Positions 49,599-55,037 of a stretch of DNA of 64,000 bases are shown piece by piece. The notes under the pieces were generated by a model. The model did not search any database, was not told where the DNA came from, and saw only the letters and a program-made list of their open reading frames with translations. Position 1 is the stretch's first letter. Each line of letters opens with the position of its first letter. This DNA comes from Bacteriovorax sp. Seq25_V. GTDB lineage: Bacteria > Bdellovibrionota > Bacteriovoracia > Bacteriovoracales > Bacteriovoracaceae. The position numbers and the translations under genes are program-made. The stretch covers positions 248,001 through 312,000 of the forward strand of contig NZ_AUNI01000009.1 of NCBI RefSeq assembly GCF_000447795.1. The letters are read 5' to 3'.

Positions 49599-50081
49599 AT
49601 GAAAAGATTTTTATTTGGTTTAACAGCTTTAACGATGACAACATTTAGCTTTGTAACTATTGATAAAGCTCAGGCAGCTTCAGATACTGCTCAGGCCCTA
49701 GCAGTTGTAACGGCAGCGATTAATATTGCACAAGTAGCTGATCTTGATTTTGGATCTGCTGTTCAAGGTGATGCTCAATCAACTGTTGCTCCAGCGGATG
49801 CATCAGCAGCAGAATTTACTGTAACTGGACAACCATCAACAGCTTATACAATTACACTTCCATCTGATGGTACGATTGAAATGATCACTGGAGCAGGTGG
49901 ATCGGCTGATGAAAGAATTGCTGTTGATTCTTTTACTTCAACTCCTGCAGCTGGAGCAAATGGGTCTCTAGATGGTACAGGATCTGAAACTTTAAAAGTT
50001 GGTGCAACTAGAGCAGCTTTAAGCGCGACTCAAGTAGCAGGTAACTATGCTGCGACTTTTACAGTTGATGTAGTTTACTAA
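49599..50081 (+). CDS. Major fimbrial-type subunit, DUF4402 family
   Basis: A 160-residue secreted protein: signal peptide ending in KAQA, then a mature Ala-rich beta-protein. ADLDFGSAVQGDAQSTV is the DUF4402 N-terminal motif; FTVTGQPSTAYTITLPSDG and the terminal TFTVDVVY complete it. Between the signal and the core is a short alternating hydrophobic stretch (TAQALAVVTAAINIAQ), which can act as the donor strand in chaperone-usher polymerisation. A strong AAGGAG lies before ATG 49599. It leads the run with a chaperone, an usher-like protein and a second subunit. Confidence 0.78.
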   Translation: MKRFLFGLTALTMTTFSFVTIDKAQAASDTAQALAVVTAAINIAQVADLDFGSAVQGDAQSTVAPADASAAEFTVTGQPSTAYTITLPSDGTIEMITGAGGSADERIAVDSFTSTPAAGANGSLDGTGSETLKVGATRAALSATQVAGNYAATFTVDVVY

Positions 50082-50150
50082 TAGTATTTTTTCCTTGTTC
50101 TCTCACGGGTAAATGAGAGAGCAAGGATTATTTTTTTGGATTGTTTTAGG

Positions 50151-50939
50151 ATGAAACTTATTAAATACCTTATATTTTCTTTATTCTTTTCTTCAAATAT
50201 TTTTGCTGATTTACAGGTTTTTCCAACGAAAGTTGAACTTACTACCCGTGACAAGGTTAGCTCTATTACTCTTCGAAATAAAAGTAATAAGACAATAACT
50301 TACTCTGTAAGTAGTATTTTTTATCGACAACACATGAATGGAAATATGGAAAGAGTGAAAGAAGCGACAGCAGAAGAAAATTCACTCGTTAAGTTTTTAA
50401 AGTTTTCTCCACGTCGAGTAACGTTGAAAGCAAAAGAAGAGCAAGTCGTTCGAGTAATGCTCAGAGGAACAAATAAACTTGATGCAGGAGATTATCGTGC
50501 TCACTTAAGGTTTGAGCCAATAGAAGAGATTGTAAGTGATCTTGATAAAAAGATTGATAGTGTTATGTTGTCAATAAAAGCAAAGGTTGCCATCTCTGTT
50601 CCAATTATTTTTCATCAAGGACGTCCAAATGGTAAAATACTTTTGGATGATCTTAAAATCACTAAAGAAGCCGACGGGAATTTCTTCTACAGAGTAAGAA
50701 TGAGTAAGCAAGGAAAAATATTTCCTCACGGAACACTCAAGCTATTTTATGAAGAAAATAAAACCGAAGGTATTGTCGCTCTTATAAATGGTGTAAGTCT
50801 ATATGTTGATCAACGTGATTTGAAGTTTAAGATTGAAAACTTTGAGAAGAAAAAAGGAAAGTACATTCTTAAATTCTATCCAGATGAATATTCCCTTACG
50901 CCACTAGCAAGGGCAGAAGTCGAGTGGCAAGGACTCTAA
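50151..50939 (+). CDS. PapD-like periplasmic chaperone
   Basis: About 262 residues with a signal peptide (FSLFFSSNIFA). The first Ig domain has VFPTKVELTTRDKVSSITLRN and the key strand LKFSPRRVTLKAKEEQVVRVMLRG, with the conserved P-R-x-V-x-L and the R that anchor a subunit C-terminus. A second domain follows from about residue 150. This fits a fimbrial chaperone that completes subunit folds by donor-strand complementation. ATG 50151 is preferred to TTG 50136. It overlaps the usher start by 16 bp. Confidence 0.82.
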   Translation: MKLIKYLIFSLFFSSNIFADLQVFPTKVELTTRDKVSSITLRNKSNKTITYSVSSIFYRQHMNGNMERVKEATAEENSLVKFLKFSPRRVTLKAKEEQVVRVMLRGTNKLDAGDYRAHLRFEPIEEIVSDLDKKIDSVMLSIKAKVAISVPIIFHQGRPNGKILLDDLKITKEADGNFFYRVRMSKQGKIFPHGTLKLFYEENKTEGIVALINGVSLYVDQRDLKFKIENFEKKKGKYILKFYPDEYSLTPLARAEVEWQGL

Positions 50940-53431
50940 GTCTCCTACGTATTCTTTTAATATTGGTTGTAACTTATTCTGTGTTTGGAAGAGGGCAGGT
51001 TAGCGACTACAATGAATTGATATTCCAAGTGAAGAACAAGGGTAATTTTGTTTTTAATGATGCCTTAATTGTTTTTGACTTAGGTGGCGATGTATATTTT
51101 CCACTCAGTGAGTTATTAGAAAGTCTTGGCGTTGAAGTAAAGTCCTCTGGGGGAGATCAAATCATTGAGGGCTATGTTTTAAACGAAGTTTCAACATACA
51201 AAATTGATATATCAAAAAAGCAGTTCCAGTTAGGTGCTACTAAAACTTCATTGAAAGATGATGACTTTATCAATGGTGGAGATGGTATCTATATTCGGAA
51301 GAATATCGTCGAGCAAATTCTAAATGTACAGATGGATGTTGATTTCCTAGGGTCTGAAGTATCAATAATTAGCTCTTATCTATTTCCCCCGGAACAGAAA
51401 AAATTAAGATCGAAAAAAAATATTGGCTCTTTGACAACATACGCGGGAGAAGAAGCTATCGATGTCAAAAGAGATTGGCTTTCTGGGTTTAATTTTGATC
51501 AAGATATTTTTTATCGATTTGTTAAAGAAGGTCGTGGAGAGAATCATCAAGATGTTCTTCATCAGACATCCTTTTCAACAGAGTTTTTGAAAAGTGAACT
51601 TTATATGAGTTATACCGGTATCAATGATATGAAAGAAGCACAATGGCTCTCTCTATCTCGAACAGATCACAAAGGAAGAATTTTTGGTGACCTTGAGGCA
51701 ACGTCATTTAGTGTGTACAATTTTAATTCTTCTTCTGTTAAATTAATCGGAGGATCTCGAACTTTGAAAGGCGCTACAGTTTCAAATCGTCCTTTTAATA
51801 CTTCAGTTATTTTTTCTAAGCGAGACTTTGTAGGTCCTATTTCTGTGGGATGGGAGGTTGAACTTTATCAAAATGGAATTTTTATTGCACGAGATTCAGG
51901 AACAGCACAGAAACAGAGATATGAATTCAAAGATATAGATCTTTATTACGGTACAAATAGTTTTCACTTTATTTTTTATGGGCCGAAAGGTGAAGTTAAA
52001 CACTCTTATGAGACATATAATATTGATGATACTTTTCAAAAGACCAAAAAACCTATTTGGACTTTTTCTTCAGGTTTTGATGAGAAAGGCGAAAGCCACC
52101 ATTTTGCAGAAGTAGATTATTTATTTGGTGAAAAACTCTATGTTGAAAGTATTTATACCTCTTTTTATGATGACGGACTCAAGGAGTTTTATAGCTTAAA
52201 TGGTTCGACTTATCTTGGAAGTAGCTTGGTTTCTCTTAATAGTGCGTTCACGAGCAAGGATAATGCTTTTGAGTTATCTTCAAAATTTAAATTGTTTCAG
52301 GATCTTAGTACTCAATTGTCTTATACGCGTGTTAATGGGTTAACTTCTGAATTATTAGAAGGGGATTTAGGACTTAAAGATATTGCAAGACTTACAGTTC
52401 TGTTCCCATTGAAGTTTATTTCAAACTTGCAGTTATTTTCGGAATTTAAATACAAGAAATTCAAAAACACAGATACTCTGTGGCAGAGATATCGGCTTTC
52501 ATATTTTAAAGGAAAGCTATATTCATCATTTTATTTTGAAGATTTAGATGGTTATAGTTTTGTTGAACTATTTAATAGGTATGTTTTTGGAAAAAATGAA
52601 TTGCGCTTTGAGACTCGAATTTCGCATAGTGAGATTGAAAATATTAGTCTCGAACTATTACATCGAAACTCTAGGTTTTCACTGAGTGGTGATATTTCTC
52701 ATTATGTTGATAGCGAATTAACAACAACAACGCTTAGTTATAATCATCGTTTGAAATATCTTACTCTCGGAGCAAATCTTAGTCATAATAAAAAGGAAAG
52801 TATAATTGGAATCAATTTATCTTATGGACTGAATTACGATGATGGAAAAACACAAATTTATGAAAAGAAAACTAGTGCTTATGGAAGCTTGAAAATAATT
52901 GCATTCGAAGATCTCAATGGAAATAATACTTACGACGAAGATGAGCCATTGACTGAGAATGTTGAATTTAGAAAAGTTACAGGTTCATTAACTGAAAAAA
53001 CAAATGTTTTGGGAGTCGCGACCTTTACGCACTTGATTCCAAATAAGCCTGTTGATATTAAAATTAGTATGAAAGATGTAGAAAATATTTACTTGAAGGC
53101 TAATAAGAAAGGATTTCGTATTTGGCCAAGGGTTGGTAAAAATGCCACTATTTATGTACCTCTTTCAATTAGAGGAGAAGCTGAAGGAGAAGTTCAGTTA
53201 ACAAATCCGAATATAGTGATGAGTGATATCGATGTGTATATTATTGATACAAATAATGAGAAAAGAAAAATTCGAGTTGAAAATGATGGTTACTTTTGGG
53301 TAGATAATCTTGCTCCTGGAGATTATCATCTAAGGATAGAGTGCTCTAAATGTGAAATAGAAAGTTTTGAAAAAGAATTCTCAATGCCAAGTGGTGGAGA
53401 TAGCCTATTCATTGAAGGATTAAGAATATGA
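50924..53431 (+). CDS. Usher-like outer-membrane assembly protein
   Basis: An 835-residue secreted outer-membrane protein. After the signal peptide, the N-terminal region has DVYFPLSELLESLGVEV, as in usher/TcfC-like N-domains. A long beta-barrel with alternating aromatic strands follows; VELYQNGIFIARDSGT and LYYGTNSFHFIFYGPKGE match the usher plug/barrel pattern of V-E-L-Y-x-N-G and G-x-N. The C-terminus has SdrD/carboxypeptidase-regulatory-like domains (FEDLNGNNTYDEDEPL, then APGDYHLRIECSKCE). GTG 50924 starts within the chaperone gene. It most likely exports and assembles the two DUF4402 subunits. Confidence 0.78.
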   Translation: MARTLSLLRILLILVVTYSVFGRGQVSDYNELIFQVKNKGNFVFNDALIVFDLGGDVYFPLSELLESLGVEVKSSGGDQIIEGYVLNEVSTYKIDISKKQFQLGATKTSLKDDDFINGGDGIYIRKNIVEQILNVQMDVDFLGSEVSIISSYLFPPEQKKLRSKKNIGSLTTYAGEEAIDVKRDWLSGFNFDQDIFYRFVKEGRGENHQDVLHQTSFSTEFLKSELYMSYTGINDMKEAQWLSLSRTDHKGRIFGDLEATSFSVYNFNSSSVKLIGGSRTLKGATVSNRPFNTSVIFSKRDFVGPISVGWEVELYQNGIFIARDSGTAQKQRYEFKDIDLYYGTNSFHFIFYGPKGEVKHSYETYNIDDTFQKTKKPIWTFSSGFDEKGESHHFAEVDYLFGEKLYVESIYTSFYDDGLKEFYSLNGSTYLGSSLVSLNSAFTSKDNAFELSSKFKLFQDLSTQLSYTRVNGLTSELLEGDLGLKDIARLTVLFPLKFISNLQLFSEFKYKKFKNTDTLWQRYRLSYFKGKLYSSFYFEDLDGYSFVELFNRYVFGKNELRFETRISHSEIENISLELLHRNSRFSLSGDISHYVDSELTTTTLSYNHRLKYLTLGANLSHNKKESIIGINLSYGLNYDDGKTQIYEKKTSAYGSLKIIAFEDLNGNNTYDEDEPLTENVEFRKVTGSLTEKTNVLGVATFTHLIPNKPVDIKISMKDVENIYLKANKKGFRIWPRVGKNATIYVPLSIRGEAEGEVQLTNPNIVMSDIDVYIIDTNNEKRKIRVENDGYFWVDNLAPGDYHLRIECSKCEIESFEKEFSMPSGGDSLFIEGLRI

Positions 53432-53835
53432 AGTTTTTTCTGTGTTTTTTACTTTCGAAAATAGTCATGGCCATTGCAATAGAAGTCTCTGTCGTTCAGG
53501 ATATGAACTTTGGAAGCTTAGCTCAAGGCGATGCTGAAACTCGAGTTCGGACAGTTAAAGGAGACTCTGGAAATGCTCGTTTCACAGTAACTGGAGATAA
53601 GAGAGCAACTTACACAATCATTCTCCCTACAAGTTTTACGATCTCGCGCTTTGGAGCGGGTACTTTTCCGTTAACTGTATCTCAAATAGAATCTAATCCT
53701 GCTGCTGGAGCAAATGGAAACCTTGGGAGTAAAGGTACTGAGACTATTTACGTAGGGGGGACCTTACAGGCAATACCAAACAATCAACCAGGTGGTTCAT
53801 ACAGTGGGGATTTTTTGATTGAAGTTTTATATTAG
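53428..53835 (+). CDS. Second DUF4402-family subunit lacking the N-terminal donor extension
   Basis: A 135-residue homologue of the major subunit. It shares NFGSLAQGDAETRV, ARFTVTGDKRATYTIILP, AAGANGNLGSKGTETI and the terminal FLIEVLY. The signal peptide appears to end at about M-A-I-A, so the mature protein would start at the first core strand. The donor-strand extension of the major subunit is absent. A subunit without that extension can only sit at the tip of a chaperone-usher fibre. Its ATGA overlaps the usher stop by 4 bp. Confidence 0.75.
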   Translation: MKFFLCFLLSKIVMAIAIEVSVVQDMNFGSLAQGDAETRVRTVKGDSGNARFTVTGDKRATYTIILPTSFTISRFGAGTFPLTVSQIESNPAAGANGNLGSKGTETIYVGGTLQAIPNNQPGGSYSGDFLIEVLY

Positions 53836-54425: not shown

Positions 54426-55037
54426 ATGAATAAATTAGTTTATGGAGTATTAACCCTACTTTCGCTTTCTTCACTAGCTGCTGAGAGCAACATGATGATG
54501 AGAATGAGAGTTATTAATGTGATGCCTGAGGAGAAAGGGACACCAACTGTGGTTGGTGGAGAAGTAAAGCTAAATAATGCTTCAGTTCCTGAAGTCGACT
54601 TTACCTATTTTTTTAATAAAAACTTTGCTGCAGAGTTGATTCTTGCAACTACAACCCATAAGGCGAGCGCTTATAAAACGTCATTAAATAACTTAGACTT
54701 AGGAGATGTCTCATTATTACCACCGACTCTTCTAGGTCAATATCACCATGATTTTGGAAATTTTAAGCCATATGTGGGAGCAGGTATTAACTATACTATC
54801 TTCTATGGTGAGGATACTGGCGTTGCTAAGAATGTAACATATGACAATAGTGTAGGTTATGCTTTCCAAGTTGGTGCTGACTATAAAGTTGCAGATAATC
54901 TCTATATTAACTTTGATGTTAAAAAGTTATATCTTTCAACTGATGTTGAGGTAGAAACTTATTCAAATGGAACTGTAAAAGCTGAAGTTGATATCGATCC
55001 ATACATCGTTGGTGTGGGATTCGGTTTCAAGTTTTAA
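54426..55037 (+). CDS. ompW: OmpW-family outer-membrane protein
   Basis: A 203-residue small beta-barrel. A signal peptide ends near LSSLAAE. The OmpW pattern is visible: MRMRVINVMPEE at the N-terminus, DFTYFFNKNFAAELILATT, LLPPTLLGQYHHDFGNFKPYVGAGINYT, and a terminal DPYIVGVGFGFKF with the C-terminal Phe needed for BAM insertion. AAAAGGAG precedes the ATG. Confidence 0.85.
   Translation: MNKLVYGVLTLLSLSSLAAESNMMMRMRVINVMPEEKGTPTVVGGEVKLNNASVPEVDFTYFFNKNFAAELILATTTHKASAYKTSLNNLDLGDVSLLPPTLLGQYHHDFGNFKPYVGAGINYTIFYGEDTGVAKNVTYDNSVGYAFQVGADYKVADNLYINFDVKKLYLSTDVEVETYSNGTVKAEVDIDPYIVGVGFGFKF

Follow-up and report, generated by a model that had tools for sequence, protein, structure and literature searches.

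Among the chaperone-usher (CU) systems closest to the locus described here are the archaic pili, such as Csu of Acinetobacter baumannii and CupE, and the alternative pili, such as ECP and CFA/I. The non-classical chaperones are marked by a conserved Arg of strand F1 (Arg89 in both CsuC and EcpB), a Pro is invariant throughout the superfamily, and in the second domain of CsuC the anchor is Tyr196, with Arg174 in a supporting role (PMC4654587). Single-domain tips are known as well, namely SafD and the AfaD/DraD group, and SafD was expressed complemented with the N-terminal extension of SafA (PMC5700814). Here we describe a locus of Bacteriovorax sp. Seq25_V that encodes two proteins of the DUF4402 family, a putative periplasmic chaperone and a large outer-membrane protein. 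It lies within a stretch of 64,000 nucleotides of contig NZ_AUNI01000009.1 (positions 248,001 to 312,000), which is referred to as the window. An earlier note on this DNA had read it as a CU locus built on DUF4402 subunits, and this reading is supported by the structure model, the fold match, the synteny and the co-occurrence of the genes: the locus is almost certainly a compact, divergent, non-classical CU fibre operon.

The usher-like protein

The 835-amino-acid protein was not matched by the Pfam usher model (PF00577) at E<1. Within its family of 32 sequences a single member was recovered by that model (E 0.0042), and TcfC (PF16967) and CooC_C (PF15976) were found in none of the 32 at E 0.01. 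An AlphaFold2 model built on the alignment of these 32 sequences had a mean predicted local distance difference test score (pLDDT) of 86.2. Counting strands from its secondary-structure string, we found six barrel strands (residues 186-287), a plug (~296-367), another 18 strands (378-639) and two C-terminal beta-sandwiches (~650-835), preceded by a putative N-terminal periplasmic domain (~30-150), whose model comprises two beta-beta-alpha-beta-beta repeats (residues 43-149); in ushers this domain recruits the chaperone-subunit complexes. The earlier note had suggested to look for a plug and a 24-strand barrel. Both are present in the model, the plug following strand 6 and preceding strand 7, and the SdrD-like nature of the C-terminal domains was borne out by a match to SdrD_B in 28 of the 32 family members.

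In a Foldseek search with the model, rows 1-18 were all FimD or PapC, the best FimD match having an E-value of 6.6e-27 at 10% identity. The first 15 rows of the VIA comparison were likewise FimD or PapC (Z 24.9 to 21.2), followed by the first non-usher at Z 16.7. Because the order of plug and strands is specific for Usher proteins, the 18 usher rows come first and the gap in Z-score is clear, the protein is very probably an outer-membrane usher with the FimD/PapC plan that lies beyond the reach of the standard usher model. The same genome contains a second CU system (L003, G000:C14:271197-272741; here and below, L and G numbers are our handles for loci and genomes), which comprises a 307-amino-acid SCPU protein, a PF00577 usher and a chaperone.

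The chaperone

The chaperone and the major subunit were folded as one read-through of the window (same frame, with stops read as Gly), and the chaperone part of this fusion model reached a pLDDT of about 95. The only Pfam match of the chaperone open reading frame (ORF) was to PapD_N, below threshold (E 0.005). The best fold matches in Foldseek were CfaA (1.3e-11) and CsuC (3.2e-11), followed by other CU chaperones, and CsuC was also the top match in VIA (Z 13.9). Fold matches and synteny thus place a gene for a two-domain Ig-like chaperone adjacent to the usher gene.

The earlier note had taken the conserved subunit-binding Arg/Lys as the mark of a genuine chaperone. A binding residue of the archaic/alternative kind was indeed found in the form of Arg116 (motif 'GDYRAH'), and the classical Arg/Lys pair was not. 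Arg116 is kept in at least 90% of 14 sequences, with Pro87 present in 14 out of 14, and it aligns with Arg89 of EcpB and, via the SCPU-system chaperone of the same genome, with Arg89 of CsuC ('SYRL'). Tyr218, a candidate for the domain-2 anchor, is invariant in the same 14 sequences, and the candidate for CsuC Arg174 varies between Lys and Arg. The classical Arg8/Lys112 pair was dropped as a test for the chaperone, as the non-classical anchor fits better. By its modelled fold and by Arg116, the product of the second ORF is a PapD-like periplasmic chaperone, of the non-classical type found in archaic and alternative systems. The chaperone also matched the WxLIP proteins of Enterococcus faecium (VIA Z 13.3, though at a root-mean-square deviation of 7.8). 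In Gram-positive bacteria these serve to bind WxL proteins; the tandem Ig plan is possibly common to both.

The DUF4402 subunits

Both subunits scored well above the curated Pfam cut-off of 25.2 bits for DUF4402 (PF14352; see Table 1), as the earlier note had proposed, and DUF4402 was the only Pfam assignment in either, without a match to SCPU (PF05229). The 3.45-Mb genome contains no further DUF4402 copy. The major subunit consists of a signal peptide, an N-terminal segment of around 24 residues that contains a predicted donor strand (ASDTAQALAVVTAAINIAQV), and an Ig-like domain ending in ...FTVDVVY, an all-beta domain that was modelled at a pLDDT of about 94-98 over much of its length. The second subunit covers only positions 33-129 of the DUF4402 profile. 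Both proteins terminate at a V.VxY strand with nothing beyond it, like pilins that are without the last Ig strand. A weak resemblance (E 0.006) links the donor segment to its counterpart in EcpA, a pilin of the alternative pathway; comparison of the subunit profile with FimA and with an SCPU protein gave nothing useful.

The major subunit and about twenty relatives have exactly 24 residues between the predicted signal-peptide cleavage site (located with a simple rule-based script that misplaced some of the sites) and the Phe of the conserved DxxFG motif. In a second group this distance is 10-13 residues; the subunit encoded after the usher belongs to that group, with 10. The difference about equals the length of one donor strand. 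A second subunit that lacks the donor strand cannot join after another subunit, so it would have to be the first, at the tip, and on the basis of these segment lengths we consider it a putative single-domain tip subunit. Two-domain DUF4402 proteins of about 280-330 amino acids occur in some relatives (L010, L011, L064 and L067), and the gammaproteobacterial operons include one of 332-333 amino acids, whose two domains would match the usual build of tip adhesins.

Co-occurrence and distribution

Usher and DUF4402 profiles were used to search 369 genomes belonging to the phylum. Of these, 30 had the usher and 28 had DUF4402, and as many as 27 genomes contained both, leaving three with the usher only and one with DUF4402 only (Fisher p 1.6e-36, which overstates the independence of genomes that are related by descent). 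The DUF4402-only genome (G073) carries an operon with the order subunit-chaperone-subunit-usher, the usher being more divergent still. In most of the loci examined the usher, chaperone and DUF4402 genes were clustered.

The distribution of DUF4402 within the family is patchy (8 of 129 genomes, and none of five congeners), and related operons were recovered from metagenome-assembled genomes (MAGs) named Gammaproteobacteria, Alphaproteobacteria and Rickettsiaceae. This pattern fits an accessory adhesion fibre and not core predation machinery. The earlier note suggested that in a predatory bacterium the locus could be an attachment fibre. A link to predation was dropped as unsupported, given the patchiness and the presence of the same kind of operon in these MAGs; attachment in itself may reasonably be deduced from the pathway.

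Two other arrangements were observed among the relatives. In L061, L034, L066, L076, L070 and L072 a DUF4402 gene is located on the opposite strand, adjacent to the operon or within it, in some cases separating the chaperone gene from the usher gene, and phase variation at these loci is conceivable. The operon of L079 (G044) encodes at least five DUF4402 proteins together with a more distant usher.

Gene order, intergenic hairpin and evolutionary rates

The four ORFs between 49599 and 53835 are all on the plus strand and have intact frames (Table 1). The earlier note described them as one run with overlaps of 4-16 bp. This holds for the presence of all four ORFs and for two overlaps, of 16 bp between chaperone and usher and of 4 bp between usher and second subunit; the major subunit gene is set apart from the chaperone gene by ~54-69 bp. 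The chaperone has 262 amino acids when read from the ATG at 50151; a start at the upstream TTG at 50136 is also possible. Nor does the locus end at 53835, as a fifth gene on the minus strand overlaps the stop of the second subunit by 4 bp (see below).

Table 1. Features of the DUF4402 locus (window coordinates) and copies of the small convergent gene in relatives (coordinates following the locus handle)
Feature	Coordinates	Strand	Evidence
Major DUF4402 subunit (putative pilin), 160 aa	49599..50081	+	Pfam DUF4402 55.1 bits, N-terminal segment length, model
Terminator-like hairpin	50092..50127	+	14-bp stem, 8-nt loop, T-rich tail; z -4.4
Predicted PapD-like periplasmic chaperone, 262 aa	50151..50939	+	Foldseek, VIA, Arg116/Pro87/Tyr218
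Divergent outer-membrane usher (very probable), 835 aa	50924..53431	+	AlphaFold2, Foldseek, VIA
Second DUF4402 subunit, 135 aa	53428..53835	+	Pfam DUF4402 66.6 bits; short N-terminal segment
Small convergent gene, 87 aa	53832..54095	-	Subunit-profile match, same place in relatives, C-terminal motif
Small-gene copy	L059 9134-9379		
Small-gene copy	L060 5201-5482		
Small-gene copy	L063 4613-4882		
Small-gene copy	L065 4743-5039		
Small-gene copy	L087 3-233		

The gap between the genes of major subunit and chaperone contains a strong, terminator-like hairpin. All eight relatives inspected have a hairpin and a T-rich stretch at the same place, with unrelated sequence. The z-scores relative to shuffled sequence ranged from -1.0 to -4.7 over ten loci, eight of which were at about -2.8 or lower; the weaker values were those of G059 (-1.7) and G342 (-1.0, in a region shortened by the ORF start used). 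Located 3' of the major subunit gene, the hairpin is probably an attenuator, which would reduce read-through into the assembly genes and give an excess of major subunit.

Sequence identity among three congeners of another genus was highest for the major subunit (85-91%), followed by the chaperone (70-80%), the usher (61-66%) and the putative tip (56-70%), and lowest for the product of the small gene (31-40%; ratio of non-synonymous to synonymous change, pN/pS, 0.53-0.62, with synonymous sites saturated). In every gene non-synonymous change was well under synonymous change. A fast-changing tip would suit a shifting binding target, although the rates are only suggestive in this respect.

Proposed assembly of the fibre and alternative explanations

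Basically, the locus would work as follows. The DUF4402 proteins would be incomplete Ig-like pilins that end at the last strand. In the periplasm the chaperone would hold each pilin, lend it a strand and anchor its C-terminal carboxylate by means of Arg116, and probably also Tyr218, and the chaperone-pilin pair would be delivered to the plugged 24-strand barrel of the usher. The second subunit, being acceptor only, would enter first and end up at the tip. The major subunit would then add repeatedly by donor-strand exchange, which would result in a thin, surface-exposed fibre in which a single subunit repeats and a one-domain protein forms the tip.

Several observations weigh against this reading. 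Apart from the SdrD-like C-terminal matches, the argument for a CU system draws on folds, on synteny and on profile links that are weak: profile searches of the PDB sequences with the subunit, chaperone and usher families gave no CU relative, which is why folds were used, and the subunit fold matched no known pilin in any search, with none in the VIA lists. The N-terminal domain of the usher had no alignment to FimD in the VIA lists, and the plug region, at a pLDDT of about 56-80, is one of the less confidently modelled stretches. The fusion model of subunit and chaperone had a predicted template modelling score (pTM) of 0.59. In L056, L057 and L077 an usher gene was found with no DUF4402 or chaperone gene detected nearby, and in L053 and L058 both of the subunits found bear a donor strand.

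The large protein might be another outer-membrane barrel, a porin or TonB-type receptor, that merely neighbours two secreted proteins and an Ig-like protein. The missing Pfam usher match of the window protein and the fact that generic barrels reach a Z-score of 16.7 would be in line with this. It is nevertheless very improbable in view of the Usher-specific order of plug and strands, the leading usher rows and the clear gap in Z-score, the near-exclusive co-occurrence with DUF4402 and chaperone, and a profile match, be it weak (E 1.3e-4), of the plug region to a segment of the usher from the second CU system in this genome. That the operon is a decayed, non-functional remnant, as its absence from the five congeners and most of the family might suggest, is hardly credible either: it was rejected on the intact frames and the substitution patterns in the three congeners, and the hairpin and gene order are conserved.

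A more serious alternative retains the pathway and changes the product. This would be a short oligomer on the cell surface, or a coat resembling a capsule, in which the second subunit would serve as base or regulator and not as tip. F1-type capsules are made by this pathway, both subunits are small single domains, and the locus has no separate large adhesin domain. We consider this unlikely, as a second subunit without donor strand cannot be added after the first, and single-domain tips of the SafD and AfaD/DraD kind are known. A fibre of the major subunit, tipped by the second, is the explanation that we prefer.

A small convergent gene

The fifth gene has counterparts of 81-98 amino acids in four relatives, which belong to two further genera. 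Their position and orientation are the same, as is the 4-bp overlap with the subunit stop; in a fifth relative (G059) the start of the small gene is found on a contig end, beside a matching neighbour gene. The window protein possesses a signal peptide, a donor-strand-like N-terminus (ASATATARMRVLPAV) and a last strand VIEVIF, with around 50 residues in between, and a signal peptide and donor-strand-like start are present in every copy. The subunit profile matched the N-terminus of the window protein (E 2e-4), and profile-profile comparison of small gene and subunit gave an E-value of 4e-5, signal peptide included; the likeness is short and Ala-rich. The complete small genes end in [DE][VI][IVLF][FY]-stop, resembling the last strand of a pilin; none of the 244 remaining non-CU ORFs in these loci matched this motif. 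The small-gene profile also gave weak matches (E 1e-5 to 0.01) in other genomes of the family, the best of which (G100) has no CU operon beside it, and only the six syntenic cases were counted.

A terminator precedent is provided by FimI and PapH, which donate a strand but cannot accept one (PMC10673952). By its sequence, the small protein is a candidate fibre terminator or base subunit, a hypothesis in which it could cap the fibre and could not accept a next subunit. The combined proposal, that the DUF4402 operons form a separate non-classical CU class and that the small gene encodes a minimal terminator (a donor strand plus a chaperone-binding last strand) capping the fibre base, is a tentative one that we regard as possible but rather doubtful. 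Further downstream an OmpW-family outer-membrane protein is encoded (54426-55037 of the window), and no link to the operon was established.

Comparison with known systems

The working principle of the locus is known; the novelty lies in its group of ushers, in its family of pilins and perhaps in the small gene. DUF4402, a family of unknown function whose name was not mentioned in the literature searched, thereby gains a likely role as the pilin of a CU fibre. The usher group, which spans Bdellovibrionota-like, gammaproteobacterial and alphaproteobacterial genomes, would be missed by surveys that rely on the Pfam usher model. Should the small gene indeed encode a terminator, it would represent an unusually small pilus end, and length control would become testable in a very compact system.

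The type 1 and P pili (FimA/FimC/FimD/FimH with FimI, and PapA/PapC/PapD/PapG with PapH) have the usher architecture in common with the locus. They differ from it in the classical chaperone anchor, the two-domain tip adhesin and the extra subunits of the tip fibrillum, and FimI and PapH have kept their Ig domain entire, which the small protein has not. In the polyadhesive fibres of Saf and Afa/Dr the major subunit repeats and the tip subunit has a single domain, as proposed here, but no sequence relation to the locus was found; these systems have classical FGL-type chaperones and PF00577 ushers. The archaic pili share the non-classical chaperone anchor, CsuC being the top VIA match, and the plug of the locus usher gives a weak profile match to the SCPU-type usher of the same genome. 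Their subunits are SCPU proteins and those of the locus DUF4402 proteins, and the SCPU-linked usher matches PF00577, unlike the usher of the locus.

With the alternative pili, ECP (EcpA-EcpB-EcpC) and CFA/I (CfaA-CfaB-CfaC), differences concern the pilins, which at the locus are DUF4402 proteins with a putative single-domain tip, in contrast to the large tip adhesins EcpD and CfaE, and the usher, as EcpC matches TcfC and CooC_C and the locus usher neither. Nevertheless, both systems have the Arg89-type non-classical chaperone anchor, CfaA is the best Foldseek match of the locus chaperone, the donor strand of EcpA weakly resembles that of DUF4402, and the CarboxypepD_reg/SdrD-like sandwich at the C-terminus of their ushers is also found in the usher of the locus.

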